NCBI GenBank assembly: GCA_033763895.1
Contig: JANRJQ010000010.1
Span: 252,146-316,145 of the forward strand
Reading direction: 5' to 3'
Source of the DNA: Chloroherpetonaceae bacterium
GTDB taxonomy: Bacteria > Bacteroidota > Chlorobiia > Chlorobiales > Thermochlorobacteraceae
DNA length: 64,000 nucleotides
In this document: positions 2,722-53,700 of the stretch, one piece after another
Layout of the letters: every line of letters begins with the position of its first letter
How positions within the stretch are numbered: position 1 is the first letter of the stretch
The notes under the pieces: model-generated
The model's input: only the letters and a program-made list of their open reading frames with translations
What the model was told of the DNA's origin: nothing
The model's database searches: none
Translations under genes and position numbers: made by a program

Positions 2722-3477
2722 ATGAAACCAAGTGAAATGGCCGCAGCATTGGCGCTGATTGAGGGGATTCAGAGAAAGCCGGTTGGGATTAAGTTTATTC
2801 GAAAAGCCGATGAATTGCCTTCTGATATACCGGAGTTTGGCAAAGACGCGCAAGGCTCTGCAAAATCTATGTTATGCGCGATGTGGGGCGACGCATTTTC
2901 CGGAGCAGGGCCATTTTACACCGTCAAAAAACATCATATCTGTGGAGGAGGAGCCGTTGCCGCCGGCTTTGGTTCCCCGGTTCCCATTGAAGCTGCAGCG
3001 AAATTTATGGTTGGTGAAAAATTGGTTTTTGGAAATTTACCCGCTTTAAAGAAGGCGATGGATTCAACACTTCCGTTTGAGGATAATGAATTTGAAGCGC
3101 AAGTGATTTCTTCTTTAGAAGCAATCGATGACCTGTTTATCCCTGATATCGTTTTAGTCATTTGCAGTCCCGGGCAAGGTCAACACATTTTAAGAGCATA
3201 CGGATTTGATTCTGGGCAGGTGATATACGGCATTGGCGGAACTTCAACATGCGAAATGGTCACATCGTATGTGATGCATACAGAGCGACCCACATTCACG
3301 CTTGGCGATTTGGGCGGAAATACGGGTATGAGTATCGGCGAGCATGAAGTCCTTTTAGCCTTCCCTTATCAAGATATGGTCATTGCTGTATCAAACTTGG
3401 AGCGGATTTGCCGAAATTCAACGATGTATAAACACTCGCTTTATCATGAGCTTCCACGAACGGTTTCATTAAAATAA
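2722..3477 (+). CDS. DUF169 family protein
   Basis: The 251-residue product belongs to the DUF169 family, whose biochemical role is not established. Recognisable parts are the start (RKPVGIKFI), the central glycine-rich segment ICGGGAVAAGFG (residues about 74-85) and a later GGTSTCEMVTSYV segment. Cys residues at SMLCAMWGD, HICGGG, VICSPGQGQ and STCEMV are spaced through the protein, so metal or cofactor binding is possible but unproven. No signal peptide is seen, so it is probably cytoplasmic. An RBS-like purine stretch precedes the ATG. It is followed after 18 bases by a symporter gene in the same frame, suggesting a two-gene operon. Confidence 0.8.
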   Translation: MKPSEMAAALALIEGIQRKPVGIKFIRKADELPSDIPEFGKDAQGSAKSMLCAMWGDAFSGAGPFYTVKKHHICGGGAVAAGFGSPVPIEAAAKFMVGEKLVFGNLPALKKAMDSTLPFEDNEFEAQVISSLEAIDDLFIPDIVLVICSPGQGQHILRAYGFDSGQVIYGIGGTSTCEMVTSYVMHTERPTFTLGDLGGNTGMSIGEHEVLLAFPYQDMVIAVSNLERICRNSTMYKHSLYHELPRTVSLK

Positions 3478-3495
3478 AAATCACGGATTTTCAAC

Positions 3496-4884
3496 TTGAA
3501 TTGGATTCTGTTCGGCATCGTTACTTATGTGGCATTACAAATCGTAATTGGGTTTTGGGCTTCAAGAAGTATTTCAACAGAAGATGATTATCTCTTGGCA
3601 GGCCGAAAATTCGGATACGGGCTTTCCATTTTTTCAATTTTTGCAACTTGGTTTGGCGCAGAAACTTGCATCGGGTCATCCGGTCGAATATTTCAAGAAG
3701 GAATATTCGGCGGCTTAGCAGACCCGATTGGCTATGGCCTTTGCATTTTTTTTATGGGATTAGTCTTTGCTGTTCCACTTTGGAAAAAACAACTAACTAC
3801 CCTCGTCGATCTTTTCCGTATTCGATTTTCAGAAAATACCGAGAGGCTTGCGGCCCTTTTAATGGCGCCAACGTCAATGCTTTGGGCTGCGGCACAAATA
3901 CGAGCATTTGGACAAGTAATTGCATTTGTTTCGAATTTTAGTGTTGATATTGCTATTTCGTTTGCCGCGATAGTGGTGATAATCTACACCGTTTCAGGTG
4001 GGTTAATGGCAGATGCTGTGACGGATATTATTCAAGGCGGGATGTTAATTCTTGGGCTAATAATTATTTTTGTTGCTCTTGTTATGAATTCTCAATTACA
4101 ATCAGGATTCTCTCAAATTCATCCGGAAAAATTTCTTCTTGTTTCTGAAAAGCATTCTACAATGGATTTGCTTGAAGCTTTAGCCATTCCACTTGTTGGC
4201 TCAATGGTGGTTCAAGAACTTGTTGCTCGAACATTAGCAGCTAAAAGCCCTCGTGTTGCGAAAAATTCAGCACTCATTGCCTCGGGAGTTTATTTTCTTG
4301 TTGGACTTATTCCTGCGATTATTGGTTTGATTGGTTTTTCTTTAGTTCCAGAAGGAACGGAACCTGAACAAGTCCTTTCAACGGTAGCGAAAAGCGTATT
4401 AAGCCCTTTGTTATTTATTCTTTTTACGGGTGCGCTTGTCTCGGCAATTCTTTCAACAGTCGATAGTGCACTGTTGGCTTCAGGTGCAATTCTCTCGCAC
4501 AATTTGGTCTTAAGAGTTTTTCCACACAAAAGCGAGGAGCTGAAGCTTCGTTGGACTAGAATGCTTGTGATTTTATCTGGAGTTATCGCTTATTTACTTG
4601 CACTAACAGGAGGAAGTGTCTATGAATTGGCGGAGAGCACTTCGGGTTTTTCAAGCGCGGGAATTTTTACAATCACTGTGTTTGGTCTTTTCTCAGCCTT
4701 TGGTTCCGAAAGAGCGGCAATCACTTCACTCATTGTTGGAACGCTTCTCTGGCTTGTTGGATCAAGTTCTCTTGGATGGAGCTATCCTTATTTGATTTCA
4801 CTTTTAGGAGCAGTGGTGAGTTACTTATTAATTGGTTGGCTGGAAAAGAATGGATCGACATCCCTTAGACGATATAAACGCTAA
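3496..4884 (+). CDS. Sodium:solute symporter (SSS family)
   Basis: A 462-residue polytopic inner-membrane protein of the solute:sodium symporter family (PutP/PanF-like). It shows the family's N-terminal pattern (DDYLLAGRKFGYGLSIFSIF, about residues 28-47), then ATWFGAETCIGSSG in the second membrane segment, and roughly 12-13 hydrophobic segments. The motif SAILSTVDSALLASGAILSHN near residue 330 is the conserved SSS signature region. The substrate cannot be told from sequence. Only TTG at 3496 is available as a conventional start, because an in-frame TAA (the stop of the DUF169 gene) lies 18 bases before it. The operon with the DUF169 gene suggests linked function. Confidence 0.88.
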   Translation: MNWILFGIVTYVALQIVIGFWASRSISTEDDYLLAGRKFGYGLSIFSIFATWFGAETCIGSSGRIFQEGIFGGLADPIGYGLCIFFMGLVFAVPLWKKQLTTLVDLFRIRFSENTERLAALLMAPTSMLWAAAQIRAFGQVIAFVSNFSVDIAISFAAIVVIIYTVSGGLMADAVTDIIQGGMLILGLIIIFVALVMNSQLQSGFSQIHPEKFLLVSEKHSTMDLLEALAIPLVGSMVVQELVARTLAAKSPRVAKNSALIASGVYFLVGLIPAIIGLIGFSLVPEGTEPEQVLSTVAKSVLSPLLFILFTGALVSAILSTVDSALLASGAILSHNLVLRVFPHKSEELKLRWTRMLVILSGVIAYLLALTGGSVYELAESTSGFSSAGIFTITVFGLFSAFGSERAAITSLIVGTLLWLVGSSSLGWSYPYLISLLGAVVSYLLIGWLEKNGSTSLRRYKR

Positions 4885-5842: not shown

Positions 5843-6778
5843 ATGAAAGCATCCAACAAAAATTTATTCTGTTTCCAGAAAGCAGTCAGTTTTTTTTTAA
5901 TTAGCCTATTTATCCTTTCTATTGTTTCTTCCTGCAAATCGGTAGAAGGACCGGCAACGAACACCTTGCCCGATTTATTTGCCTATGCCAAAAGGCTTTA
6001 CGAATACGGGGCTTATTCAGACGCGAATTTAGAGCTTCAGAAACTGACTTATACTTCTCGTGCGACTGAGTATGAGGATGATGTTCAGTTTTATTTAGGG
6101 TTAAGCTATTATCAAAACCGTCAGTTTTTACTTTCTTCCGATGCTTATCAAACATTGCTGCGAAATGTACCCGGCTCGCCCTATGGTAAGCAAGCTTTCT
6201 TTGGAATCGCTAGTTGTTATTATTCACTTTCTCCTACTTATGCTCTTGACCAAGAGTACACTCGGCGCGCAATCTCTCAATATCAAGCTTTTCTCGAAAC
6301 CTATCCACCCCCAGACTCCGCTAAAATTGCCGAGGAAATCGACAACCTCAAAACACTCTTAGTAGCAACTGACGATAGCACACGAAAAACGCGGTATAAT
6401 GATTTAATTTCAAGGTTGCAGGCTCAATATGGGCAATTAGACACCCTTCGATTAGCAGAAGAAAGAATTCAAATTTGCAGAGCCAAGCTTGCCCGCAAAA
6501 CATTAGAAACTGCCAAGCAATATGTGAATCTTCGCGCCTTTCGCTCAGCCACACTTTATTTTGACGAAGTGATGACGAGTTTTTCGGATAGCGAACTTTA
6601 CGAAGAAGCTCTTTTGGGGAAAATTGATATGCTAAGAATTCGTAAGCGGTGGCAAGATGCAATGGCTGAAATTGAAAAGTATGAAGATCGATTTCCAGCG
6701 AAAAAAAATGTAGTTGAGTCGGTCAAGAGAACCGTTGAGAGCGAATTGAGTGGAACGCAATCAGCACTTCAATATTGA
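5843..6778 (+). CDS. bamD: Outer membrane assembly lipoprotein BamD
   Basis: BamD is the TPR lipoprotein of the BAM complex that inserts beta-barrel proteins into the outer membrane. The 311-residue product begins with a signal peptide ending in the lipobox IVSSC (Cys about residue 31). TPR repeats follow: YEYGAYSDANLELQKL, YYQNRQFLLSSDAYQTLL, then the BamD signature DQEYTRRAISQYQAFLETYP (about residues 138-157), and a last repeat around ALLGKIDMLRIRKRWQDA. Length is slightly above E. coli BamD. nadD follows after 13 bases, so the two are likely co-transcribed. Confidence 0.88.
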   Translation: MKASNKNLFCFQKAVSFFLISLFILSIVSSCKSVEGPATNTLPDLFAYAKRLYEYGAYSDANLELQKLTYTSRATEYEDDVQFYLGLSYYQNRQFLLSSDAYQTLLRNVPGSPYGKQAFFGIASCYYSLSPTYALDQEYTRRAISQYQAFLETYPPPDSAKIAEEIDNLKTLLVATDDSTRKTRYNDLISRLQAQYGQLDTLRLAEERIQICRAKLARKTLETAKQYVNLRAFRSATLYFDEVMTSFSDSELYEEALLGKIDMLRIRKRWQDAMAEIEKYEDRFPAKKNVVESVKRTVESELSGTQSALQY

Positions 6779-6791
6779 TCTTAAGAATTTC

Positions 6792-7406
6792 ATGATGCAC
6801 ATTGCTTTGTTTGGCGGCTCCTTTGACCCACCACATTTGGGTCATTTTGCAATGGCACTTTTAATTCGAGAATTGTTTTCTCCCGATCAAATCCTTTTAA
6901 GCGTTTCCCAAAACCCATTCAAGACAGATTCAAGTGCAGAAACTTATCATCGTGTTGAGATGACCAAGTTAATGGCTCGTGAATTGAATAAAACAGGAGA
7001 GGTTTTTGAAGTGTTTGATTGGGAATTATCGAGACCCGCTCCCTCCTTTACCATCGATACCATTCGTTATATTCACGGGCAAAACCCTACTGCCCAATTA
7101 ACACTCTGTATTGGCGAAGATAACTTCAATTTATTTTCGAAATGGAAGAACTATGAAAAAATTCTTACTTATGCTTCGCTTGCTGTGTTCAAAAGGCCAA
7201 GTCAAAACGGGCAGCCAATAAATGATTCATTTCTTATTGCACCAGAAGACTTGGAGAGGAAAGTTACGGTTATAGACTTCAATTCGGATTTTTCATCTTC
7301 GGAAATCAGAAAGAACTTAGCGACAGGTGAGTCTGTCGATGAAGGACTTTTGCCGGAGGTACTTCAATATTTGCGTAAACACTGCTTGTACAATGTGATG
7401 GGGTAG
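6792..7406 (+). CDS. nadD: Nicotinate-nucleotide adenylyltransferase NadD
   Basis: NadD converts nicotinate mononucleotide plus ATP to deamido-NAD in NAD biosynthesis. The 204-residue product opens with the nucleotidyltransferase motif ALFGGSFDPPHLGHF (GxFDPxHxGH) and ends with the second motif FSSSEIRKNLATGE (SSTxIR-like). IGEDNF and KWKNYEKIL are also typical. The start is placed at ATG 6792 (ATG 6795 is equally possible) because the longer frame would overlap bamD and adds residues outside the family fold. It lies 13 bases after bamD. Confidence 0.93.
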   Translation: MMHIALFGGSFDPPHLGHFAMALLIRELFSPDQILLSVSQNPFKTDSSAETYHRVEMTKLMARELNKTGEVFEVFDWELSRPAPSFTIDTIRYIHGQNPTAQLTLCIGEDNFNLFSKWKNYEKILTYASLAVFKRPSQNGQPINDSFLIAPEDLERKVTVIDFNSDFSSSEIRKNLATGESVDEGLLPEVLQYLRKHCLYNVMG

Positions 7407-7441: not shown

Positions 7442-9061
7442 ATGAATTTCACCGATTCTATTTTTTCGTCCCTTGAGCCGCATCCCAAAGACTTCCCCAT
7501 ATTTTTAAGTGCGCTTGCGATCATTTTCTCTCAACTTCTTATCACAGAGTTTTTGAAGCGAAAAAATATTATGAGCGCAGCGCATACGCGGAAAGTGATT
7601 CACATTCTGACAGGCGTTTTAATTTTTATTGCGCCAAATTTTTTTCATACCGGATTTTATCCTGCCTTGATTCCCTTAATATTTATTCCCATTAATCTCA
7701 TTGCCGTTCGATTCGGTTGGTTTGAATCCATTCACGGCTCTGAAAGAGGTGAACTAACAAATCAGAACAAGATTGAGCATAACTATGGCACGGTTTATTA
7801 TCCTTTCGCTTTTTTGATTTTAGTTGTACTGTTTTGGGGTTCACACACTTGGGTAATTCAGGTTTCAATGTTGGTATTGGCCATTGGAGATGCTGGGGCG
7901 TCACTTTTTGGAGAAAGTGTGAAGAAGCCTCATTTCTACAATTTGGCAGGGCGTGAATCAAAACCCAAAACAATAGAAGGTTCATTAATGATGTTTGGGC
8001 TTAGCCTTGTAATCATTTATCTCTCGCTGAAATTTTTTAAGCAGGAATCACTTGCCCTTCTTTCGATTGACGACAAAACACTTTTCGTGCTTTCAATTTC
8101 CCTTGCCTTGATTGCTACAGCCACAGAAGCACTTCTTTCCGGAGGAATCGATAATCTTTTTGTCCCTCTTTCCGTGGCTTATCCAATGGTGATTTTTGAT
8201 ATTCAAGGTGCTGAAATGATTCGAAATATTATTTTGGCAACTTGTATTTCTTTTCTCTTTGTTAGACTTTCTGTATGGCTGAAATTCCTTAATGCGAGCG
8301 GGGGAACCGCCACCTTTCTTTTCGGTGCAAATATTTTTTGTATGGGAGGCGTAAAGTGGACCGTACCTGTTTTAGCATTCTTTTTACTTTCTTCAATTCT
8401 TTCCAAAGTTGGGAAGGCTAGAAAAAAGAAATTTGATTTAATCTTTGAAAAAGGGTCACAGCGAGATGCTGGTCAGGTGTATGCGAATGGAGGGATTGCT
8501 TGGTTAATAATGATTTGGTATTCTTTTACTCCAGAACCAATTCTTTTCGTCGCGTTTTTGGGCACCCTTGCCGCGGTTCAAGCCGATACGTGGGCAACTG
8601 AAATTGGGACGATGTTGCGGAACCCTAAGCCTGTTTCAATTATTTCTTTTAAGCCAGTGGCACCCGGAACTTCCGGAGGTATTACGGTCACAGGTACATC
8701 CAGTGCGTTTCTGGGTGCCGCAGTGATTGCGTTAAGCGGGTGGTTGATTGCAAGCAGTGAAATCCGGAGTCTCTTTGGGGATGGTTCATCAAGCGGGTTG
8801 CTCGAGGCGATTGGATGTATCGGTTTGGCGGGGTTAATTGGAAGCTTGATTGATAGCTTCTTAGGTGCAACAGTTCAAGCAATGTATTTCGATGAAATTC
8901 GCCAAAAGGAAACTGAGCGAACACATTCGCGTAAAGAGGATGGGACACCCATTGAAAACCGACTCATTAAAGGATACCTTTGGGCTGACAATGATTTGGT
9001 GAATTTAATTTGTGCAATATCCGGTGCAGGAATATCTGTTATCATCTATTCCTTAATTTAA
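7442..9061 (+). CDS. Fused phytol kinase-like (VTE5) and DUF92 phytyl-phosphate kinase-like (VTE6) membrane protein
   Basis: The 539-residue integral membrane protein joins two families. Residues about 35-260 resemble the phytol/dolichol kinase (CTP-dependent, VTE5-like) family: HTRKVIHILTGVLIF, NYGTVYYPFAFLI and GDAGASLFGES followed by a KTIEGS motif. Residues about 280-539 are a DUF92/TMEM19 domain: NASGGTATFLFGANIF, RDAGQVYANGGIAWLI, AAVQADTWATEIGTML, PGTSGGITVTGT and GLIGSLIDSFLGATVQ. In plants and cyanobacteria VTE5 makes phytyl phosphate and VTE6 makes phytyl diphosphate, salvaging phytol released from chlorophyll. A fused enzyme would carry out both steps, but substrate specificity here is inference. 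It fits with bchI elsewhere in the window. Confidence 0.82.
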   Translation: MNFTDSIFSSLEPHPKDFPIFLSALAIIFSQLLITEFLKRKNIMSAAHTRKVIHILTGVLIFIAPNFFHTGFYPALIPLIFIPINLIAVRFGWFESIHGSERGELTNQNKIEHNYGTVYYPFAFLILVVLFWGSHTWVIQVSMLVLAIGDAGASLFGESVKKPHFYNLAGRESKPKTIEGSLMMFGLSLVIIYLSLKFFKQESLALLSIDDKTLFVLSISLALIATATEALLSGGIDNLFVPLSVAYPMVIFDIQGAEMIRNIILATCISFLFVRLSVWLKFLNASGGTATFLFGANIFCMGGVKWTVPVLAFFLLSSILSKVGKARKKKFDLIFEKGSQRDAGQVYANGGIAWLIMIWYSFTPEPILFVAFLGTLAAVQADTWATEIGTMLRNPKPVSIISFKPVAPGTSGGITVTGTSSAFLGAAVIALSGWLIASSEIRSLFGDGSSSGLLEAIGCIGLAGLIGSLIDSFLGATVQAMYFDEIRQKETERTHSRKEDGTPIENRLIKGYLWADNDLVNLICAISGAGISVIIYSLI

Positions 9062-37942: not shown

Positions 37943-39121
37943 TTAAGGGTTCGGAAAAGATTCGGTTGAAGTTCCAAAAATCTTCTTCAACTCCCGTTCA
38001 ACCTTTTCACCGGCATCCATTGTTTCAAGCGGGTCGCGGCGCAGCCGGTGCCGAAGTGCAGCGGTGGATACCGCTAAGATGTCTTCTACCGTTGCTTCGT
38101 TTCGCCCCTCGTAAGCCGCATGAGCAGAGGCCGTGCGCATCACGGTAAGTTCTCCGCGGTGACCGTCGATTCCCAAGTTCATACAAAGCAAGGCTATCTT
38201 TGAAAGCAACTCATCGGGCATCGTCACTGAATCAACCAATGATTTTGCTTTTTCAATTTTGGATTGCAGTGCTTTTTGTTCCGGCTCCCATTCTTTCAAA
38301 AATTCTTTCGGGTTTTCATCAAAGCTGCGGCGACGCTTGACAATCTCAACCCTTTTCGCCACATCATTAATGGTATTAATTCTCGCATGAAGCCCGAATC
38401 GGTCGAGAAGCTGCGGACGAAGCTCGCCTTCTTCAGGGTTTCCTGAACCAACAAGCACAAACCGTGCCGGATGCTGAATGCTAATTCCTTCACGCTCAAC
38501 CGTATTTCTTCCGCTTGCCGCCGAATCAAGCAAGACATCCACCAAGTGATCATCAAGCAAATTGACTTCATCGATATACAAAAAGCCGCGATTCGCTTTC
38601 GCAAGCAAACCCGGCTCAAATGCTTTTGCGCCTTTGGTGAGCGCCTGTTCAATATCGATGGTGCCGCACACACGGTCTTCCGTTGCGCCTAAAGGCAAAT
38701 CAACCACCGGTACAGGAATTTTCTCAACATGCGGGTGTTTGGCATGAGCCGTTTCATGCAAGTATTCTTTCAACGAGCGGTTGTAGGGGTCGTTTTGCAC
38801 GCGTTCAATTTCAGGCAGCACATCTGCAAGAGCACGAACTGTGGTGCTTTTCCCCGTTCCGCGATGCCCCATCACTAAAACGCCACCGATTCTCGGATTG
38901 ATAATATTGAGAATCAAACACAATTTCATTTCCTCTTGCCCCACAATCGCCGTGAATGGAAACACCAATTCCCCCTTTGGTTTCATTACAGGCTTTGGTG
39001 CATGATGCTCCTCATGATGCGTTTTTGATTTTGGATTTGGACTCGATTTCTTCAAAGAGGGAACTGGTTTCTTGCTTGGTTTGGTGCGTTTTGAAAGGGA
39101 AACGCCGGTTTTTTTGGTCAT
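37943..39121 (-). CDS. bchI: Magnesium chelatase ATPase subunit I
   Basis: BchI is the AAA+ subunit of magnesium chelatase, which inserts Mg into protoporphyrin IX, the first committed step of (bacterio)chlorophyll synthesis. The 392-residue product has a Lys/Pro/His-rich N-terminal extension (about residues 1-52), then FPFTAIVGQEEMKLCL, Walker A MGHRGTGKSTTVRAL (about 88), the insertion loop LPLGATEDRVCGTIDI, Walker B GFLYIDEVNLLDDHLVDVLL, and sensor/Arg-finger region GNPEEGELRPQLLDRFGL. HRGELTVMRTASAHAAYEGR ends the lid. The start is ATG 39121; the longer frame starts at TTG 39136. bchD and bchH are not adjacent. Repeat-rich spacers flank the gene on both sides. Confidence 0.92.
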   Translation of the reverse strand: MTKKTGVSLSKRTKPSKKPVPSLKKSSPNPKSKTHHEEHHAPKPVMKPKGELVFPFTAIVGQEEMKLCLILNIINPRIGGVLVMGHRGTGKSTTVRALADVLPEIERVQNDPYNRSLKEYLHETAHAKHPHVEKIPVPVVDLPLGATEDRVCGTIDIEQALTKGAKAFEPGLLAKANRGFLYIDEVNLLDDHLVDVLLDSAASGRNTVEREGISIQHPARFVLVGSGNPEEGELRPQLLDRFGLHARINTINDVAKRVEIVKRRRSFDENPKEFLKEWEPEQKALQSKIEKAKSLVDSVTMPDELLSKIALLCMNLGIDGHRGELTVMRTASAHAAYEGRNEATVEDILAVSTAALRHRLRRDPLETMDAGEKVERELKKIFGTSTESFPNP

Positions 39122-39256
39122 AGTGATTGTATTCAAAGATTGTGAAATTCGCTTTCACCTGCGCCCGAATTCGAGATGGTTTTGGTTGCAAAGTTAAGGA
39201 ATTTGTCAGTTCAAAGGAGAGTGAAAAATGCGAGGCGTTTCCAAAAATACTTTCAT

Positions 39257-40577: not shown

Positions 40578-40806
40578 ACGAATAAAAAAAATTCTTTTGA
40601 TCGGTGTTTGAAGGTAAAGAAACCAAAGGGTAAAGAAGAAATTTAATTTTGAATTAACGCATTAAAATCAAAGAACTCCTATATTAAACAAGCCCTCATT
40701 TTATCCCTCATAATTTATCTGCTGCAATTGAAAGTTTCCTTAGGCTCGAGCCTTTGGGTTCTTAAAAAATTGATTATTTGAATTGCAAAATTATCCGAAA
40801 CCAAAC

Positions 40807-43800
40807 ATGAAAAAGATTTATTACGCGATTACTTTATTGATTTTTTTTCCACTAATCGCTTTTTCACAAACAGATCCTACGCCTCAATCGGTACCCTTTA
40901 GCCAAAATTTCTTAACCTTTGATGGTGCTCAAACAGTTTACCCATCTGGTTTCCAAGGGTGGACAATTGCAGGTAGTACTGCTCTAACTTTTCCAACAGC
41001 TGCGCCAAATGGAAACCAAGCCTTAGCCGGCGGAACAAATGCATCCGCTGGTTCAGGGGTTTTTGATATGAATGGGAAAATGGGTGTGCTCTCAACCGGA
41101 GCAGCGTTACGCTCAATCGCTTTTGCCATAAATACCACAGGCCTCTCTTCCATAAATATATCTTACACGGCAGCAACCCAGAGGCAAGAAACAGGGGCAA
41201 GAATCGGAGCTATTGGATTGCAATACCGAATTGGCACAAGTGGAACATTCACCGATATTTCCGGTACAGAATATCAAAATCCCGGCGGTTCAAACAACAC
41301 CACAGGTACTGGATTAATTAATCCTCAAACCATTTCAGTTGTTCTCCCCGCTGCTTGTGATAATCAAGCCAATGTGCAATTGCGTTGGGTCTATCGTGAA
41401 GTTTCGGGTGCAGGAAATCGACCAAGTTTTTCTGTTGATGACATTGTCGTTTCTTCCTCACCCTCAATTCAAGCGTCAGCAGTTGCGCCGGGTGCGATAT
41501 CCAGTACCAGTATCAACATCTTTTGGACAAATGGCAATGGCGCAAATCGAATTGTCGTCGCCCGTAATAATCAACTGCCCGAATTGCCGGTCAGCGGAAC
41601 CGCTTACACAGCTAATTCAATTTTTGGCTCCGGTTCTCTCATTGGAGCAAATACCTATGTGGTTTATAACGGTTCTGGAAATTCTGTAACAGTAACCGGT
41701 CTCTTGAACAATAATCAATATTCGTTTCAAATTTTTGAATACAATGGTTCTGGAATTACCTCAGTCTATAATGTATCAACGAGTTCAGGCAATTCAATTA
41801 ATCTTTTAGCCCTTGACCCAGCCGCGGAAAGAATTCGACTTTCACCCTCACTAACAAATTCGTTTACAACCATTCAAGGAACGCCCTCTGCTCCCCAAAC
41901 CCTGACTTTAACGGGTTCTAATTTATCAGGCTTAGATATTGAAATTGGTAGCAATAATTCCGCCTTCGAGCTGTCATTAGATGGAACGACCTACGCTCCA
42001 AATTTGACCCTTACCAATGGAACTGCTTTCCCATACAGTTATAGTGGAGGCACTTTAACCGCTACAGTATTTGTAAGAATACAAGCATTCCATCCGGAAG
42101 GAACAGTATCCGGTGGTGTCGTGTCCGCTTACATCAATGGAGGTATTTTTTCAACAACCAGCACGAATGTCGCAACTTCTTTTGTTAATGCCAATGAACC
42201 GTCAACTCAAGCGTCAGGAATCTCAATATCTGGTGTGTTGTCAAATCAATTTACGGTCAATTGGACAAGCGGCTCAGGCGCAAATCGCTTGGTCGTGGTT
42301 CGGCAAGGCGGAGACCCTGTTTCTCCGGTTGACGGAGTAAGCTATACCGCAAATGCAAATTTTGGAAGCGGTTCAAATCTTGGAAGCTTAAGCTATGTGG
42401 TGTATTTGGGCAATTCAAATACGGTCACAGTTACGGGTTTAATTTCAACAACATCCTATACGGTTGCAATTTATGAAGTGAATGGTACCGGAAGTACTTC
42501 TAATTTTAATACTTCGGTGACCGATGGCGTTAATCGTATTTCTCAAACCACTGGAGGTCCTAATGTTATCACCACTTTGGGCACTGTATTGACGGAAGCA
42601 TTTAACATTGGCACTTCATCAACAGCAGCATTACCTACGGGATGGCTCATGTCTCCGGCAGGTTCTACTTCACCAACTTGGACTGACGCGGGAAACTTTA
42701 GTGCTACCACCCAAGCTGCAAGTTCTGGGACGCCAACAGCCGGAGGAAGGTACAATTGGTCAATAACCGGAGATGGAAACCGTGCCATAGGATTTATGAC
42801 TTCTGGAGGTTACGCTTCTCCGAATAGTATAATGGCGCGTTTTACAAATGGAACAGGCACAACGGTCAATGCGATATCGGTCAATTTCGCCATTAACCGT
42901 TACCGGATTAATACCGCTCCGGCATCAATCCAATTTTTCTACTCTTTGGATGGTTCAACTTGGACATCGGTTTCCGCCGGCAACATACCGACTACCGATA
43001 TACCAACCGGTACAAGTACCTATACCTTTTCAACGCCTTTAGTCAATACCCGAACCCTAAGCATTACGGGTCTTACAATTCCTGATGGCTCACAATTTTA
43101 TTTGCGTTGGAATTTCAATACGGGAGGGACGAATTCTCAGGGGTTGGGATTAGATGATGTGAATATTACGGTTCAAGCAACAGCCGCAGCCCCAACGGCT
43201 CAACACAATTCATTGCCATCACTTTCCACAACCAGTTCGTCAGCAACATTCAGTTGGGCGGGCGGCAATGGCGCGCGAACAATCGTGTTGCTCAAAGCCG
43301 CAAGCGCTGTGGATTCAAATCCGGTAAATGGAAATGGCTATACTGCCAATTCTGTCTTTGGAAGCGGAAGCCAACTTGGAACGGGAAATTTTGTGGTATT
43401 TGATGGAACGGGAAGTTCAGTCACGGTCACGGGCCTTAATTCAGGCACTCAATATCATCTTGCAATTTATACCTACAATGGCAACGGATTATCCTCCAAT
43501 TATTTAACCCCTGCCTATACCAATAATTTTACCACGCCCGGGCTTGCACCCGTAACTGCGCTAACCGCGGCGCCAATTACAGGAACACAAGCAACTGTTG
43601 ATTGGACACTTCCGGTTAATTTCGCGCCTGCTTCAGGAACCATTCTCGTTTTTGCGAAAGAAGGCAGTGCGATAACGGTTGGGTCTCCATCCTTGAATTC
43701 ATCTTCCTATACCGCCGATGCCAATTTCACCGGCACAGGCACGGCGTATGAAAACGACCCCGCCGCGAAGTGTGTCTATAACGGCGATGCCGCATCGGTA

Positions 43801-46800
43801 ACCGTTACCAACCTCACCTCCGGTAACACCTATCATTACTTGGTCTTTCATGTCTCAGGCGGAACCTTGTATTCGGATAGTCGCGCCTCGAGTGCCGCAC
43901 AACCCACCGAAAGGATTTGGATTGGTGCTTCCGGTCAACCGTGGACGACCACAACCAATTGGAATCCAAACGGGCTTCCTTCTGCCGGTGAGTTTATCGT
44001 CATTAATTCTTCAACAACAATAGCCACTGTTCCAACGGTCAGTATCGGTGCATTGAGCATAGGAACTGGGGCGACGGTAACGCTTCAAACGCCGGCAACG
44101 AATACACTCACGGTTACCGCATCTCAAAACGCTGTAAGAATTCCTTCAGGAGCTTCATTAACATTATCAAATAATGTTTCATTAACACTTGCTTCGGGTT
44201 CAGCTGCTCGGATTAATGGACAACTGCAATTGGGAAATGGTAGTATTACACGTACAGGAGCTACTTTAGAATTCTTAAATGGCTCAGAATTTATCTTAAA
44301 TGCCGAGGCAGGTGCAATACCAACCGCAACTTGGTCTTCGAACTCAACTGTTACCATTACAGGTTACACAACCGGCACCGTAGCACCAAGCGGTTTAACT
44401 CAAAACTTCGGCAATTTTGTCTGGAATAACCCTATACAATCTGTAACTGTCAATCTTGCAGGAAGTCTAAATTCAATTGCAGGTTATGCTGCTTTCAACA
44501 CCGGAACGGGTACTCTGAATCTCACAACAGGGGCATCTTATACCCTTAACGTTGGAGGAGATTTCACCCTTGCCGGCGGTACAGTGCAACTTTCATCAGG
44601 AGCCGGAGCCCCAACCTTAAATGTGGGAGGAAATGTGACAATGAATCTTGCGAATGTCATTTTGAGGGGAACGACCGGAAGTAGTACGGCCACCATTAAC
44701 ATTACCGGGTCGATGACAATGTCAGGAACTTCTGCTCAATTTGAAGGTGCAACCTCGAGTGGAGGAATCATCAATATGTCCATCGGTCAAGATTTGACCG
44801 TTGCGCAAGGGAATTTTTACGGGTTAGGCGTTGCCAATAATCCCTCCACAACAAGTGTCATAACCATCGGTGGAAAAGTTGCGGTTGGTGGCGGAGCTAA
44901 TCCAAGTAATTTATTTCCAAATGGCTCTTCGAATGCCGCATCAAATATCGTTTTCAACATTGGAGGCGATTTGGAACTCAATACCAACGGAACAATTAGC
45001 TCCACAGCTACAATTGCGCCTGTATTAAATTTTTTCGGCGGGTCAACCAATGCCGTAATTCTCAGCGGCTCTGGAGGTTTATTCGTCAATAATGTGAATC
45101 TCTCTGTTGGGAGTGGAAAAATTGCTTCGCTTGGAAGATCAATCGTATTGCCAGACTTTACGACTTTCAGTGTCTTAAATAATGGAACGCTGAACACCAA
45201 TAACTTTACTTTATCGGGGGGTGCGATCTTTAATCTCAATGCCGAAGGAACTTTGATCGTAACAAGTACCTCTGGTATAAATTCTTCGGGTTCCACGGGT
45301 AATATTCAAACGACAAGCAGAATCTTTAACTCAAACGCTCGTTACATTTATTCAACAAGTTCAAACGGCTCCACGGGAAACGCCTTACCTTCGCCCGTTA
45401 AGTTTGTTGGCATAGACCATCCCTCAGATCTAACTGAGACCGCAATCTCCGGATTGAGAACCATCTCAGATACTTTGTATTTACGAAGAGGCCGTTTCGA
45501 TAACACCAATTTTAACTTCAACGTAGCCAATAACGGGTTTGTTGTTCGAGAAACAGGCGAGATATTCCCAAATCAACTCGCTTATGCCGGTCAATACAAC
45601 CTCACGTATGCTCATACAAGCGGAACCGTTTCTATCGGGGATGAATTTCCAAACACACTGAATATTTTAGATACGCTGGTGATCAATCACTCCGGAACCG
45701 AAGTCTTTATAACTGGGGATCGTCAAGTAAATGCACGGCTTCGTTTGCAAAATGGCATCTTAAATACATTTGGATCCACGCTTACCTTAACCCCTTCGAC
45801 CGAAATCCGTGGTGGAAGCAATGCCAGTTATGTTACAGGAAATTTGGCTCATCAAAATACGACTACTCCTACGAATAAACTCTTTCCCTTTGGAGACTTA
45901 GGCATTTACCGTCCCATTTCACTCACGCTTGCAGCCAATGTGAGTGTTTCTACCGTTACAGGTGCTTTGAATTTTACTGCCGGCGCGGCCTATCTTTACA
46001 AAACTGTTACTCCACCTGCCGTGGTCTCCGGATTAAGGTTTTATGAATTTGCAAATGGCTCAATTAATACGACTTTGACCGGTGTTTCAGGGTTTCAAGT
46101 CAATGCCGATGATAATGTGGCTAACTTTGGCTTTAATACCAACCTTCGCTTGGCTTATGGCTATGATGGAAACCCAAGTTGGTTTTTAAGAGATTTAACC
46201 GCAGTTCCAAATACGCAAACAGCAAACTTGCCAATTACAATTGCTTCAACAGCAATCGTACAAGGGTTTACTGCATTCCAAAATTTTGGCATCGTGCTTG
46301 CCTCTACCATCGGCGATAACCCGCTGCCCGTTGAACTCGCATCCTTTACCGCCGTTTCAACCATAGACGGCGCAAAGCTCAATTGGCGCACCGCCTCCGA
46401 AACTGAAAACTCGGGCTTCCTCATCTTCCGCGATGGCGTTCAATTGGCTTCATTTGCAGAAGTTGCTTCCCTGAAAGGCAAAGGCACCACATCGCGCGCA
46501 AGCGATTATGCCTTTGTGGATTCAACCGTGCAATTTGGCAAAACCTATACTTACCAATTGAAAGATGTGAGTTTTAGTGGGGCTATCAAAGAACATTCAC
46601 CAATTACGCTTACCATTACCGTGCGTGCACGGCCGAAGGAATTCGCTCTTGGGCAAAATTACCCGAATCCCTTTAACCCCGCCACGCGGATTAAATATCA
46701 ATTGCCCGTGAAAAGCAATGTGAGCATTGAAGTTTATGATGTGCTCGGTAAAAAAGTCGCAATCCTTGCCTCAGGGGTTAAAGAAGCAGGGTATTATGAA

Positions 46801-46899
46801 GCCATCCTGAACGGTACAAATCTCTCAAGCGGGATTTATTTCTACCGTATCCAAGCCGGGGGATTTGTGAAAACGTTGAAAATGTTACTCGTCAAATAG
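40807..46899 (+). CDS. Giant T9SS-secreted surface protein with fibronectin-III-like repeats
   Basis: The 2030-residue product has a signal peptide (IYYAITLLIFFPLIAFSQ), then at least four related modules of about 90-100 residues resembling fibronectin III domains. Each contains a TVNW/NIFW-like strand, TANxxFGSG, FVVFNG or YVVYNG, TVTGL and YEYNG phrases. A long Ser/Thr/Asn/Gly-rich beta-helix-like region (about 1100-1600, NGTLNT, NLTTGASY) follows, then a domain with PLPVELASFTAVSTIDGAKL, and the T9SS type A sorting domain ([20 protein letters not shown] ... [20 protein letters not shown]). It should be exported and surface-anchored or released. The start is ATG 40807; the longer frame starts with TTG. 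A strong terminator follows. Confidence 0.85.
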   Translation: MKKIYYAITLLIFFPLIAFSQTDPTPQSVPFSQNFLTFDGAQTVYPSGFQGWTIAGSTALTFPTAAPNGNQALAGGTNASAGSGVFDMNGKMGVLSTGAALRSIAFAINTTGLSSINISYTAATQRQETGARIGAIGLQYRIGTSGTFTDISGTEYQNPGGSNNTTGTGLINPQTISVVLPAACDNQANVQLRWVYREVSGAGNRPSFSVDDIVVSSSPSIQASAVAPGAISSTSINIFWTNGNGANRIVVARNNQLPELPVSGTAYTANSIFGSGSLIGANTYVVYNGSGNSVTVTGLLNNNQYSFQIFEYNGSGITSVYNVSTSSGNSINLLALDPAAERIRLSPSLTNSFTTIQGTPSAPQTLTLTGSNLSGLDIEIGSNNSAFELSLDGTTYAPNLTLTNGTAFPYSYSGGTLTATVFVRIQAFHPEGTVSGGVVSAYINGGIFSTTSTNVATSFVNANEPSTQASGISISGVLSNQFTVNWTSGSGANRLVVVRQGGDPVSPVDGVSYTANANFGSGSNLGSLSYVVYLGNSNTVTVTGLISTTSYTVAIYEVNGTGSTSNFNTSVTDGVNRISQTTGGPNVITTLGTVLTEAFNIGTSSTAALPTGWLMSPAGSTSPTWTDAGNFSATTQAASSGTPTAGGRYNWSITGDGNRAIGFMTSGGYASPNSIMARFTNGTGTTVNAISVNFAINRYRINTAPASIQFFYSLDGSTWTSVSAGNIPTTDIPTGTSTYTFSTPLVNTRTLSITGLTIPDGSQFYLRWNFNTGGTNSQGLGLDDVNITVQATAAAPTAQHNSLPSLSTTSSSATFSWAGGNGARTIVLLKAASAVDSNPVNGNGYTANSVFGSGSQLGTGNFVVFDGTGSSVTVTGLNSGTQYHLAIYTYNGNGLSSNYLTPAYTNNFTTPGLAPVTALTAAPITGTQATVDWTLPVNFAPASGTILVFAKEGSAITVGSPSLNSSSYTADANFTGTGTAYENDPAAKCVYNGDAASVTVTNLTSGNTYHYLVFHVSGGTLYSDSRASSAAQPTERIWIGASGQPWTTTTNWNPNGLPSAGEFIVINSSTTIATVPTVSIGALSIGTGATVTLQTPATNTLTVTASQNAVRIPSGASLTLSNNVSLTLASGSAARINGQLQLGNGSITRTGATLEFLNGSEFILNAEAGAIPTATWSSNSTVTITGYTTGTVAPSGLTQNFGNFVWNNPIQSVTVNLAGSLNSIAGYAAFNTGTGTLNLTTGASYTLNVGGDFTLAGGTVQLSSGAGAPTLNVGGNVTMNLANVILRGTTGSSTATINITGSMTMSGTSAQFEGATSSGGIINMSIGQDLTVAQGNFYGLGVANNPSTTSVITIGGKVAVGGGANPSNLFPNGSSNAASNIVFNIGGDLELNTNGTISSTATIAPVLNFFGGSTNAVILSGSGGLFVNNVNLSVGSGKIASLGRSIVLPDFTTFSVLNNGTLNTNNFTLSGGAIFNLNAEGTLIVTSTSGINSSGSTGNIQTTSRIFNSNARYIYSTSSNGSTGNALPSPVKFVGIDHPSDLTETAISGLRTISDTLYLRRGRFDNTNFNFNVANNGFVVRETGEIFPNQLAYAGQYNLTYAHTSGTVSIGDEFPNTLNILDTLVINHSGTEVFITGDRQVNARLRLQNGILNTFGSTLTLTPSTEIRGGSNASYVTGNLAHQNTTTPTNKLFPFGDLGIYRPISLTLAANVSVSTVTGALNFTAGAAYLYKTVTPPAVVSGLRFYEFANGSINTTLTGVSGFQVNADDNVANFGFNTNLRLAYGYDGNPSWFLRDLTAVPNTQTANLPITIASTAIVQGFTAFQNFGIVLASTIGDNPLPVELASFTAVSTIDGAKLNWRTASETENSGFLIFRDGVQLASFAEVASLKGKGTTSRASDYAFVDSTVQFGKTYTYQLKDVSFSGAIKEHSPITLTITVRARPKEFALGQNYPNPFNPATRIKYQLPVKSNVSIEVYDVLGKKVAILASGVKEAGYYEAILNGTNLSSGIYFYRIQAGGFVKTLKMLLVK

Positions 46900-47327: not shown

Positions 47328-47769
47328 ATTTTAGAATGCCTTATCAAACACTTAAAAATGGTGCTTCATGACATTCAAAAAGGCAACAGGTGAGTCTTGG
47401 TAAGGCTTAGAAAAAAAAGGGAAATTGGGGCATTAACCTTCGCTTAATATGGTTTATTCAAAAATTTTCGTTATTTTATAAGACTCATAGTAATAGGTGA
47501 AAAGATTTTTCACCGCTCGGAGGTATTGTTTCAATGATTTCATGTGATTAAAGCCCCTTAATGAAAAGGGAAATCGACCGTGAAGGGATTTGATTATAGG
47601 CAATTCGATTGAAAGAATACTATAAACAACATAAAAGGAAATTTAACAGGAAATCCAGTTGGCGAGTCAAGCATCGCCGGAAATTGATACAAAGGAAGAA
47701 ATGACCAATTATTCATTGTTTCCCAACATTATCAAAGTTTATCAACTTATTATTAATACCAAACGCATC

Positions 47770-50700
47770 ATGAATAGAACGATACGATTATTTTTATTTC
47801 TACTGCTGTCCTCTTTCGTGTCTTCCCAAGCTTTTGGGCAAGCGACTCTTTCTTCGGGAGTTTACACTCAAGATTTTACTTCTTTAAATACCAGCGCTAC
47901 TGCAACCTTACCAACAGGGTTTGTGGTTAGTAATGGAACTGTATTTTCAGGAGGTACAACTGCTACAACCCAAGCGGCAGGAACATCAGGGACTGGTATT
48001 TTAACAGGTTCTTCTACTGGGGGTACTTATAATTTCGCCAATGGCGTTACAGGTTCTTCAACTGATCGAGCCTTAGGTTTTTTGTCATCTGGAGGATTTA
48101 GTTCTCCGAGAAACATCATGCTTCAATTTTCAAACAATACCGGCTCTACGGTGACTTCTTTAAGAGTTCGGTTTGATTACGAAAAATACCGTTCTGGAAC
48201 TCGTGCTTTTGATATGAATTTCTTCCACGGGTCTGACGGAACAAATTGGACTGCTTCTGTCGCGGGTGACCAAAATTATCCAGCAGATGCAAATAACACT
48301 ACAATTTCAAACCCACCTGCAACTACTTCTAAAACAGTTGTTATCACAGGTCTTTCCATTCCCAATGGTTCAAATTATTATCTTCGTTGGTCATATACCG
48401 GTTCAGGTGGTTCAACCAATGCACAAGGGTTAGGTCTTGATAACCTCGAGTTAGTTGCAGAGCCAACCACAGCGACTGCGATTGCCACTGGTTCAATTTC
48501 ATCCAACTCCATTCAAGTAAATTGGACCAATGGAAATGGTGCCAATCGTATTGTTGTCGCCCGTCAAGGCGGTGACCCGGTTGCGCCAACCGATGGCACA
48601 ACTTATACCGCGAATGCCGCTTTTGGTTCAGGTACAGATATTGGTTCATCGAGTTTTGTGGTCTTTAATGGTAGCGGTAGCACGGTTACGGTAACCGGTT
48701 TAGCGGCAAGCACTTCTTATACCTTTGATGTGTATGAATACAACGGTACAGGCGCAAATATCAATTATAATTTAGTTGCAACATCTACCGTCAATCGAAT
48801 TACGGCTTCGACTACTGCCGCAGGTATTGGAAGTTTGACATTTTCCGTGGCAAACCGCACGAATTTCATTTCAACGCCTTCCACGAATTCAAACGTACAA
48901 ACCGTTACTTTGTCAGGGTCGGATTTAGATGGCACACCGTTATCGATATCCGATGGCTCCGGTGCATTTGAGTTTTCGCTTGACAATGTGACGTTTAATT
49001 CAACGCTGAATTTGCCTTACACAGCGCCAACCCTTTCAGCAACAACCATTTACATCCGTTTAAGCGATCAAGCAATTGGCACCTATTCGGCAGGGATTAC
49101 ACCCACAGGGGGTGGCGATGCCACACCACCGTCGCTTGGGCTTTGGGGCCGCTCGATTGATTCTGAGCCTGCCACACAAGCATCGGGCATTAGTTTCTCC
49201 GGCGTGGGAACCAACAGCATGACCGTCAATTGGACACGCGGAAGCGGTTCTGAAGTCGTTGTTTTAATGCGTGATAATGCTGCTACGGAGAATCCGGTGG
49301 ATACCGTCAGCTATACGGCAAACAGCGTTTTTTCAAGCGGTGATTTAGTTGGATTCAGCACCTTTGTTGTTTATCGTGGCAACGGTACATCCGTATCTGT
49401 TTCGGGGTTAAATGCGAACACTTCTTATACCGCCACCGTCTTGGAATTGAATGGGAGCGGTTCAAATACAAATTACAACATCACAACTACGGCAAGCGTT
49501 AATACCGCAAGCCAAAGCACGAATGTTCAATTGCTGGATTTAACGACAGACGGCAGTGCTGTGGTTATCACCTTTGATGATGCTGTTTCGGGTTCGAATG
49601 GCGGTACATATGCAGGAACAGGGTTTGAACCAGCGGATGGGGATGGAACTTTGAACTCCTCCTCTTGGGCATTAAGTGGGATGAGTGACGGGAATGTGGA
49701 TTTCGGTGCGACCGCAAGTGGAGGTGATTTTGGAAGAGGCGTAACATCAGGTGGGGTTACTGACGGCGGGTTGTACGCCTTGGATGATGGTAGCGCGATA
49801 CGATTGATGATTCAACCTTCGGGTTCTGACTGGAGTTCTTCTTCAACGGCAAACCTAACGCTGCGTGTTCGAAACACGATGGGTTCGACAATGAATCAGG
49901 TGGAAATTTCCTATGATTTATTGGTTCGAAATGATGGGGGTGTTTCAAGTCAATTTAATTTTCTCTATTCAACGGATGGAGTGAATTACATCCCGGTACC
50001 TGAATTAAATTATGTTTCTCCCGCAGCTGGTAGTTCTACAGTATTTGATCCTGTTGTTCCAACCAACGGTACTGCTTTTCGCGTACGCATTAGTGGGTTG
50101 AATATTCCCAATAACGGCGTCTTTTATTTAAGATGGAATGGCGGCGATGTGAGTGGTTCGGGTACAAGAGATGAATTTGCTTTAGATAATATCTCAATTA
50201 CCCCAATTAATGGTGGCTCTATCGATGCTACCTCTGATGGTGCCAATCTGATTGTCGTTGGTGATCCGGTAGGCGCAACCCCAACTATTGATACGGATAT
50301 TTCGCTTCAAAATTTAAGAGTAGATGCAGCGGGTTTCTTAAACGCGCAAGCTTTTTCATTAGAAGTTGCGTCTGGTGGAAGTGCCATCATTAATGGTACC
50401 TATCAATTAACCAACACAAACGGCTTCAGTGGTGGCGGTGCAACCTCTTTAACCAATACCAATACCCCAACCATTACATTAGGGGCTGCGTCAACGGTGA
50501 TCTATGCTACTTCAACGTCAACCCAAACGGTAACGGGTCGCACGGATTATGCAAACTTGACTTTAGAGGGTTTCAACCCAAGTAAAACTCTAAGTGGTAA
50601 CCTAACCGTAAGCGGCACAATGACTTTTGGTGGGTCAGGAACCGGAACCTTTACCTCTGGTGCGAATACAGTAATCTTCCAAAATGGAAATACGCCAATC

Positions 50701-53700
50701 GTTCGAAGTGGGGTGCTTCAATGGAATGCGAATTCGACAAACCTTCAATTTGGAAGCACCGGAAATTTGGGTGGTAATGCTTTTACGCTTCCGAATGATT
50801 TATTTTCAGCGGGTGGAAATTCGATGGCGTCATTGACAATGAACCGGACGAATACGGTTGAATTGGGTAACCAAAATATTTTACCCGGAACTCTGACCTT
50901 AAACCTTGGGATTTTGATTACCCAAAATGGCGGTGGTACTTCAACGGCACGCATTGAAGTAACCAGCAATTTGCCGGCGGCAATTACGGGTTACAAAACG
51001 GATTCGCATGTTCGCGGCGTTTTGGCGCGTGCCATCCAAACGAATATTTCAGTGGATGGAACGAGTTATGTCTTTCCAATTGCCAATAGTGTAGGGGAAT
51101 ATCAACCGGTATCTTTAAATGATATCCGTACTAATGTTGGGGCATCAAGTGTCTTTGTTGTTACGCCTTCTGCTACGGGAGCCAGCACAGTGACGGGTGC
51201 CCTAACCAATGTTCGCCCGCAAAATTGGTTTTTTGAAGAAATCAACGCTCCGCTTGAATTAACGAGTGCAACTTTAGAAATTAAAGGGCTTACTACTTTA
51301 TTAACGAATGAATCTTTTGTCGCAATCTCGAATGCCCAAAGTGGCGATTACAGCCCTATCGGCGGCGTCATTGTTGATTCTGTTGTTACAAGCACTGCAC
51401 AAGCGTTTACCTTAAATGCAGGAACGCGTTATGCCGCGATTGCCGATAATGTGGTTACGCCAACCATTCATGCGAGCGGTATTAATTTTACCGGCGTAAG
51501 TGGTGGCACCATCACAATTAACTTTACACCGGGTAACGGATCAAACCGAATGGTGGTTGTTCGTGAAGGAAACCCGGTAACTTTTGTACCGGTTGACAAT
51601 ACGGTTTATTCGGGCATTAATTCGATTTTTTCTTTTGCAACCAATCAAGATGGTGACAACAACCGAATTGTATCGGCTGGAACATCATCTTCGGTAAATG
51701 TCACGGGTTTAACCGGAAATACCACTTATCACTTTGCCGTGTATGAATATGGTGGCAGTGTCCCGCTTGGAACCGGTCGATTCTTTACAACCGGTGCGCC
51801 AACGGCATCCAGAAATACACTTCCGGCTCAACCGACAACCGATGCTTCGGGACTCGTTTTTAATCCGGTAGGAGAAACAACGATGACCCTCACTTGGACA
51901 AATGGTAATGGCGAAGGTCGTTTGGTAGTCATGAATGAATACGCCACAGCGGTAGTAGCACCAACCGATGCGGTCGCTTATACTGCGAATGCAGCTTTTG
52001 GAAGCGGTTCAACAACCGGCACCGGAAACTTTGTCGTCTTCAATGGTTCAGGCAATACGGTGAATGTAACAGGTCTTACACCCGGAACATTCTATATGGT
52101 GAGTGTTTATGAATACAATGGTTCCGGAATCAATTCAAATTATGATCCGAATGGCTTAAGAACTTCTAAAATCACTTTATCGACTGAGCCAACGGAGCAT
52201 GTGAATACAATTGCCGGTGGAAGCATTACAAAATCGTCCTTAACCCTTTCTTGGGTAAATCCCGGAACCGGTCCTACGCCAACAGGGTACTTGGTTCTGC
52301 GCCGTGCTGGTTCAGCGCCAACCACCTTGCCTTCTGATACAACAACTTATACGGTGGGAACAATTTTCGGAAATGCAACGGTAGCTGCTAATGTGGCACA
52401 TCCAACAAATTCAGCTGCCATTTCAGGTCTAGCTTCAGGAACTGATCATTATTTTGTGGTTTATCCCTATCGCCAAGTGAGCGGTGCGGCAAATAGCGGG
52501 TCAACCAATTACTTTACGACAGGTGCTCCTTCCGCAAATTTTACAACAACCGCAGGTCAAGTTTATACTTGGAATGCGTCATCCGGTGCTTGGAGTACTG
52601 CCGGAAATTGGTCACCCTCGGGTCCACCAACCGATGGCGATCAGGCGTTGTTTAGTGGTGAAGGAACGATTACCGTTTCTTCAATTCCAACGACCTCAAT
52701 CGGGGGAATCGAAATCACGGGCGGATCCACTGTGACATTTAATGTAAGTGCAGCAAATAACACCATTACTTTAACCGGATTTGGAACAGGAACAGGCAAT
52801 GCCTTGCATATTGACGGCACTGATACTCTTGTTGTAACAACACCCATTTGTACCTTAAGTGTTGCTTCCGGAGCAACAGCCGAAATTGAAGGTCGAATTC
52901 GTTTTCAACTTGCTGCGGGTCGTTTGTTAGGAGCTGATTCAGCCTCGATTCTTTTCCAAGGAACAGGACCGAAAGAAGCCTTCGCAAGTAACGGTTCCTC
53001 AGGGAATATGTTTGGGAACTCTGGTATTGAAAATACAGTGATTTTCAGAAGCGGTTCAAGGTATGTTCATTTTGCAGGTGCAAACCCATTTGGATTAACC
53101 GGACCAGCCTCAAAAATAGTATTTGAATCCGGTAGCATTTATGAATTGAAAGGTGGATCTATAACCCCAGCTGTAGCCGGAAGAACTTATGCAAATATTT
53201 TGGTTAATGGAAGTGGAATTTCGTCAAGCTTTTCCTCAACAACCTTGCCGTTTACTGTTGATACAATCAACATTTCTTCGGCAAACACGGTTACATTTAA
53301 TATTCCCGTAGGAATGAACATAAGAGGGAACTTTACCCGAACCGCAGGGTCAGTTTCCTTTACCGGAGGAGGAAATGAAATTAATTTTGTAGGCACAACG
53401 CCTCAAACAGTAACAGGTTTTGTGAGTAGTTTTGGAGCCGGTACTGATATTCAAATTAATAACCCGGCCGGAGTCACTTTTACCGGAAATTATACCTTAG
53501 AAGACACCCTTGATTTGGTGAGCGGTGTTTTAAGTATATCTCCCGGAAGTATTCTTCGAATGAATTCTACAGGTACAATTACAGGAGGAAGTAACAGCAG
53601 TTATTTAGTTGGTCAATTAGAGCGCTCTTTTACCACTACGCGTCAAAGTCTGTTATATCCTTTTGGCATCCAAAATGTTTATCGCCCGATCCAAGTTCGG

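Follow-up and report, generated by a model that had tools for sequence, protein, structure and literature searches.

Why should a relative of the green sulfur bacteria carry two kinase-like domains for isoprenoid alcohols on a single polypeptide, and is the protein devoted to recycling the tails of its pigments? The question arises from one gene in the 64,000-nucleotide stretch of DNA analysed here, called the window. Positions 7442-9061 of the + strand hold one intact ORF, with an ATG start and no interruption, encoding 539 amino acid residues. The first-pass annotation read the product as a phytol kinase-like domain joined to a DUF92 domain, and took the fusion in a likely phototroph as a sign of channelled salvage of phytol (or farnesol/geranylgeraniol) from (bacterio)chlorophyll turnover. 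The features of the gene and of its upstream neighbor are as follows.

6750-7406, + strand: nadD (nicotinate-nucleotide adenylyltransferase); likely true start near 6792
7442-9061, + strand: candidate fused prenol kinase/prenyl-phosphate kinase gene; 539 aa; predicted model with 16 long helices, read as membrane-spanning
7475-8227, + strand: N half, SEC59/VTE5-like, CdsA-like kinase domain; residues 12-262, 8 long helices
7589-7603, + strand: RKVIH clamp; residues 50-54, with R and H in 60/60 and K in 52/60 aligned fused proteins
7889-7912, + strand: DAGASLFG; residues 150-157, D150 in 60/60
7967-7984, + strand: KTIEGS; residues 176-181, aligning with the CdsA KTWEG motif
8126-8155, + strand: EALLSGGIDN; residues 229-238, E229, D237 and N238 in 60/60
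8246-9028, + strand: C half, DUF92 domain, candidate prenyl-phosphate kinase; residues 269-529
8450-8491, + strand: KGSQRDAGQVYANG; residues 337-350, in the C half
8582-8608, + strand: ADTWATEIG; residues 381-389
8666-8680, + strand: GTSGG; residues 409-413
8852-8878, + strand: DSFLGATVQ; residues 471-479
8990-9004, + strand: NDLVN; residues 517-521

The C half is readily assigned. It matches the DUF92 profile PF01940 from profile position 2 to 251 of 251, with an E value of 4.5e-66 and 223.2 bits against a cut-off of 27.5. VTE6, At1g78620, COG1836 and DUF92 are taken here to be one family, with which the C half shares a complete DUF92 domain. The fused protein differs from VTE6 in having DUF92 and an alcohol kinase on one chain, and in scoring 112 bits with the NCBIfam model TIGR00297, under that model's cut-off of 205.85; thus, it is not filed under TIGR00297. 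The N half yields nothing significant in Pfam, where the single row returned is a chance one (ENOD40, E 0.16), or in NCBIfam. PF01148 does not match the window protein in the Pfam search, and it reaches 21.2 and 23.1 bits in two fused relatives, below its cut-off of 24. Because no curated model of either collection matches, the description of the N half as phytol kinase-like must lean on other evidence.

That evidence comes from the predicted fold, from profile comparison and from motifs. For the whole protein, AlphaFold2 gives a model with a mean pLDDT of 93.6 and a pTM of 0.92; for the N half folded alone the values are 93.7 and 0.91. Eight long helices follow in the same order in both halves, with an additional beta stretch (residues 481-510) ahead of the last helix of the C half. 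Among solved structures, CdsA (4q2e, 4q2g) is the best match of the N-half fold and a partial match of the C half. With 4q2g, the N half gives a VIA Z of 8.9 (rmsd 4.3 over 165 residues; next unrelated chain 6.3), and CdsA laid on the whole model aligns with residues 356-539 of the C half at a Z of 5.2 (rmsd 2.9 over 121 residues), a match that is weak alone; both Z values fall under about 13, where a score can reflect an arrangement common among helical proteins. Foldseek agrees with this ranking but not in significance, with a probability of 0.90 and an E value of 0.088 for the N-half model against CdsA, and neither the whole-protein nor the N-half model has a Foldseek match at E ≤ 0.001. 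In the whole model, the N half also resembles membrane pyrophosphatase (Z up to 7.8), which we take as a common helical arrangement. This candidate was set aside because it is missing from the 50 rows shown for the N half folded alone, an absence that is not evidence in itself. Searches of solved structures by sequence gave no match for the single protein, and with the N and C profiles the matches did not rise above chance level.

Profile comparisons point in the same direction. A profile built from 131 N halves, with duplicates kept and a 95% filter applied, matches the profile of 30 CdsA-type CTP transferases at 95.8%, with a P of 7.3e-9 over 191 columns. The alignment places the kinase K-S/T-x-x-G-S opposite the KTWEG of CdsA, so that CdsA and the fused protein share a D..A...G plus K-T/S-x-E-G pattern. 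The C-half profile matches CdsA with a P of 1.7e-4 to 2.9e-4 over 75-78 columns. When the two halves are compared with each other, they match in register, with P values of 1.8e-3 and 1.5e-3 for 31-33 sequences (probability 15-17%) and of 1.7e-3 for profiles of all fused proteins. The deepest alignment, with stand-alone members added, gives a P of 3.5e-5 and a probability of 71.7%, so that support for common ancestry is moderate. The controls were five families, that is, four hydrophobic neighbor clusters and BchK-type prenyltransferases. All 20 comparisons of the N and C profiles with them gave a P of 0.068 or worse, and three CdsA controls gave P values of 0.28, 0.037 and 0.40. The two halves probably have the same fold and are distant duplicates of one another, which these comparisons make likely without proving it. 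CdsA itself transfers CMP, whereas kinases transfer phosphate, and the window genome has a separate CdsA of its own.

The motifs can be set beside those of the Plasmodium prenol kinase, PolK. PMC10849223 reports a model of that enzyme in which there are eight helices and a hinge glutamate, and in which the putative CTP pocket is closed off by a clamp of Arg29, Lys30 and His33. The eight predicted helices and the R50-K51-V-I-H54 sequence of the fused N half match this description, and the invariant E229 may correspond to the hinge glutamate. Compared by description, the N half has eight helices, an Arg-Lys-x-x-His clamp and a CdsA-like fold in common with the SEC59-like enzymes VTE5, FOLK and PolK; the fused protein differs from them in having a second kinase domain attached. 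PMC9782597 describes a strong preference for CTP in VTE5, FOLK and VTE6 and reports AtVTE6 as a CTP-preferring phytyl-P kinase, and PMC3223725 gives At1g78620/COG1836 a predicted role in phytol-phosphate metabolism.

Conservation was judged in an alignment of 60 fused proteins: the window protein plus those of 59 loci, drawn from the 78 named ones that have both halves. The N half has eight invariant residues, R50, H54, G116, D150, G180, E229, D237 and N238, and K51 and K176 are further conserved. In the C half, judged among these fused relatives rather than against plant VTE6, the residues found in 60/60 are G287, R341, Q345, N349, G350, D382, T383, W384, T386, E387, G389, G409, G412, D471, S472, N517 and N521. 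Since the invariant and near-invariant residues are intact in both halves of the window protein, neither half looks dead. The domain search proposed in the first-pass annotation bears out the C half, where DUF92 is complete, and not the N half, which no kinase profile of Pfam or NCBIfam matched. Taken with the intact ORF and with the profile, fold and motifs of the N half, these results confirm the original observation of one 539-residue chain with a phytol kinase-like and a DUF92 half.

A further element varies within the family. A CxxC is present in the last part of 47/60 aligned fused proteins, in the region corresponding to residues 481-510 (about positions 8882-8971), where the consensus reads CxxC...HC and is possibly metal-binding. 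It is missing from 13/60 proteins: the window protein, each of the nine further Chlorobia rows of the alignment, and those of loci L132, L153 and L164.

How widespread is the fusion? A search of relatives found a near-full-length match in 59/60 other genomes, at 45-58% identity, which argues that the fused ORF is not a chance one. In the 60th genome, G060, the two halves lie in different frames. Counts for Chlorobia refer to 98 genomes of the window genome's class, its own included, the class label being inferred. In this set, 88/98 genomes have a near-full-length match, and another six match in part or in split form (G060, G066, G077, G082, G087 and G090); three are hit through a stand-alone kinase only (G076, G085 and G093), and G078 has none. 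In G060 and G082 (loci L094 and L095) the halves occupy overlapping but different frames, either an assembly error or a real split. Each of the order's four family codes has genomes with the fusion. DUF92 was found in 94/98 class genomes and in 131/296 others of the phylum sample (225/394 in all). The N-half profile and DUF92 were found in 287 and 225 of the 394 genomes, respectively; no weight was given to this co-occurrence, since more distant relatives are picked up by the N profile as well.

A scan of named organisms, seeded on one C-half motif, ranked at least 585 relatives of a fused query, and the top 80 were considered. Both halves lie on one chain in 78 of these 80 loci. As the ranking favors fused proteins, the scan tells of breadth and not of frequency. 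Among the matches listed, the holders include KSB1, Calditrichota, Neomarinimicrobiota, Ignavibacteriales, Bacteroidetes MAGs, the isolate Roseithermus sacchariphilus, which we take to belong to Rhodothermota, and Chlorobiaceae. The groups other than Chlorobia are not known to include phototrophs. The remaining two of the 80, both from Melioribacteraceae (L181 and L192), have DUF92 and no recognizable N half. In one of them, L181:3353-4966, DUF92 occupies residues 279-533, preceded by about 278 residues to which the N-half profile gives no match. Some genomes also have DUF92 as a stand-alone protein, roughly 230-290 aa long. A plasmid search gave one match, to the DUF92 part only, in Thermomicrobium roseum. 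Five loci, L196-L199 from four genomes of one family (f36) and L203 from G110, join an N-type kinase domain to a divergent C-terminal region that barely or not at all matches DUF92; the same loci have a PEP-synthase-like ORF, as judged by eye.

The N-half tree, made by a quick method from 89 rows (63 of them fused ones left after thinning at 55% identity), has long branches that leave its deeper order unsure. In it, the fused rows from Chlorobia, five in number, group in a single clade (99) nested within non-Chlorobia fused rows. The fused rows are not strictly monophyletic, in that L111 falls outside and the f36 rows and some stand-alone N domains fall inside.

The host is very probably a phototrophic relative of the Chlorobia, because its genome has a gene for the FMO antenna protein (674.9 bits) and the window carries bchI, for the magnesium chelatase subunit BchI, at 37943-39136 (TIGR02030, 529.5 bits vs 466.95). 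The two genes uphold the first-pass call of a likely phototroph. bchI lies 29 kb from the fused gene. No pigment gene adjoins the fused gene in the window; by eye, none is among its recurrent neighbors either, and no isoprenoid enzyme is found among the 30 largest neighbor clusters around the family's loci. The recurrent neighbors are clade-specific housekeeping genes: in Chlorobiaceae, tol genes and amino-acid biosynthesis genes, the genes downstream looking like tol/envelope genes; in Rhodothermota-like loci, a dicarboxylate symporter; in Ignavibacteria-like loci, TPR and sigma-factor genes; and elsewhere, a DNA polymerase subunit (all by eye). With housekeeping neighbors and no isoprenoid enzyme among them, the neighborhood is uninformative on function. 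On the upstream side in the window, nadD stops 35 bases short of the fused gene, and we claim no functional link between the two.

Other features of the window are recorded here for completeness. The ORFs at 40783-46899 and 47659-54690 encode very large secreted-looking proteins of 2038 and 2343 aa, which share with the product of 54817-55929 a C-terminal end resembling a sorting signal (by eye). Positions 2722-4884 encode a DUF169 protein followed by a sodium-solute-symporter-like ORF (by eye).

The window genome (3.55 Mb in 14 contigs, 99.09% complete) has a single DUF92 match, within the fused protein, and three N-half homologues, one being the fused gene and two standing alone. Of these two, L209:4457-5149 on contig C10 encodes 230 aa and begins 22 bases downstream of a prenyltransferase gene, L209:5172-6194. 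The prenyltransferase scores 467.4 bits with the bacteriochlorophyll c synthase model, under its cut-off of 494, and 246 bits with the (bacterio)chlorophyll synthase model TIGR01476, above its cut-off of 212.3. The kinase is of the same family as the fused N half and has the same motifs: R-K-x-x-H, D..A...G, K-S-x-E-G-S and D-N. It differs from the fused protein in its length, in having no DUF92, in adjoining bacteriochlorophyll c synthase and in belonging to a separate clade (99) of the N-half tree, formed by 13 bchK-linked kinases.

This arrangement recurs. The kinase gene lies directly downstream of bchK, on the same strand, in all 28 loci examined, which are that of the window's own genome and 27 (12 + 15; L211-L222 and L253-L267) from the 91 others having the kinase, with all four family codes represented. 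The two genes are 22-167 bases apart in 26 of the 28 pairs, and the gap is -44 and -268 in the other two, where the longest ORF was used. The bchK-linked kinase was found in 92/98 Chlorobia genomes and in 71/74 of those of high quality. In G009 it was found neither in the genome nor in the BchK locus, where a BchK-like gene is kept (62% identity). G085, a 98%-complete Chlorobia genome, has the stand-alone kinase and no DUF92 that we could find, perhaps because of an assembly gap. The third homologue in the window genome, L210:4642-5346 on contig C4, encodes 234 aa and has a weak PF01148 match (14.2 bits); bchK has no match in its 10-kb locus. The stand-alone, bchK-linked kinase is a better candidate than the fused enzyme for salvage of pigment tails.

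Can the fused enzyme nonetheless be dedicated to phytol salvage from pigment turnover, as the first-pass annotation proposed? The phototrophic host and the occurrence of the fusion across the order would fit such a role. Yet the fused gene is not directly linked to pigment genes, nor, to judge from the KSB1, Calditrichota, Neomarinimicrobiota, Ignavibacteriales and Rhodothermota proteins, is it restricted to phototrophs. BchL reached at best 40.3 bits in 30 non-Chlorobia genomes with the fusion; this is weak support, because only one of four Chlorobia controls (G009) passed the marker's cut-off, a second scoring 342.3 bits over part of the model and the other two, the window's own genome included, 195-208 bits. 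The nesting of Chlorobia N halves among others, and the separate kinase beside bchK, also tell against a dedicated role, which we consider unlikely. Of the earlier interpretation, the two-kinase architecture stands, on domain, predicted fold and motifs; its restriction to phytol and to phototrophy was too narrow, and the step from fusion to phytol salvage finds no specific support.

Two further explanations are about as improbable. The N half could be a CTP-dependent diacylglycerol or dolichol/polyprenol kinase of the SEC59/DGK1 type serving envelope lipids, with the C half acting on a long polyprenyl phosphate. The SEC59/CTP-transferase fold group to which the N half belongs is a broad one, with several lipid substrates among its members, and the tol/envelope-like genes in Chlorobiaceae would suit this role. 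However, the diphosphate of a long polyprenol would, on general grounds, have to be broken down again before it could serve as a glycan carrier, and fusion to DUF92 points to short prenyl chains, the plant member being reported in PMC9782597 to act on phytyl phosphate. It would also take much to persuade us that one half is catalytically dead, or that the halves are independent enzymes tied together without hand-over. DUF92 does stand alone in some other genomes, and the four f36 genomes and G110 pair the N-type domain with a divergent C-terminal region; against this stand the intact residues of both window halves and the keeping of the fusion across a large phylogenetic range.

In the explanation that we prefer and regard as reasonably probable, two CdsA-like CTP-transferase domains, probably related to each other, stand in tandem in the fused protein, which acts as a two-step prenol to prenyl-diphosphate kinase. 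In the first step, the N half would make the monophosphate of a free isoprenoid alcohol (C15-C20: farnesol, geranylgeraniol or phytol). In the second, the C half, of the DUF92/VTE6 type, would convert the prenyl monophosphate to the diphosphate, usable by prenyltransferases. CTP as the donor, the substrates, the order of steps, the hand-over between halves and the use of the product are all proposed from sequence and predicted structure. The enzyme would be an old, general prenol-salvage enzyme of a bacterial group, kept in the phototrophic Chlorobia, in which the second, stand-alone alcohol kinase beside bchK probably handles bacteriochlorophyll tails. The C half of the fused enzyme could add the second phosphate for both kinases. 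Indeed, if pigment tails are recycled by way of the bchK-linked kinase, the fused C half would be required, since no other DUF92 was found in the genome. Chlorobium bacteriochlorophyll c carries mainly farnesol, which makes farnesol as likely a pigment-derived substrate as phytol; farnesol or geranylgeraniol may fit at least as well as phytol. A more speculative proposal, which we offer tentatively, is that of a split pathway in Chlorobia. The bchK-linked kinase would make farnesyl phosphate, and the fused DUF92 half, the only one in the cell, would make the diphosphate re-used by BchK, the fused enzyme having arisen by ancient internal duplication of one CTP-transferase fold to take prenols to diphosphates on one chain.

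The VTE6 paper, or the SEED notes behind PMC3223725, may mention fused COG0170-COG1836 genes. Neither a VTE5-VTE6 fusion nor a bchK-linked kinase is described in the titles and abstract openings of the matches listed, a set to which the central VTE6 paper does not belong. PMC4921024, on gene fusions, contains none of the terms searched for, and the passages of PMC9069557 examined hold nothing on Chlorobi kinases.

Prenol salvage genes are hardly characterized, and few of the kinases have been identified so far, according to PMC9782597 and PMC10849223. A single chain that may carry out both steps offers a clean test case for the function of DUF92 and for hand-over between the two activities. 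For the bchK-linked kinase, in turn, gene removal would put the recycling of pigment tails by green sulfur bacteria to a direct test.
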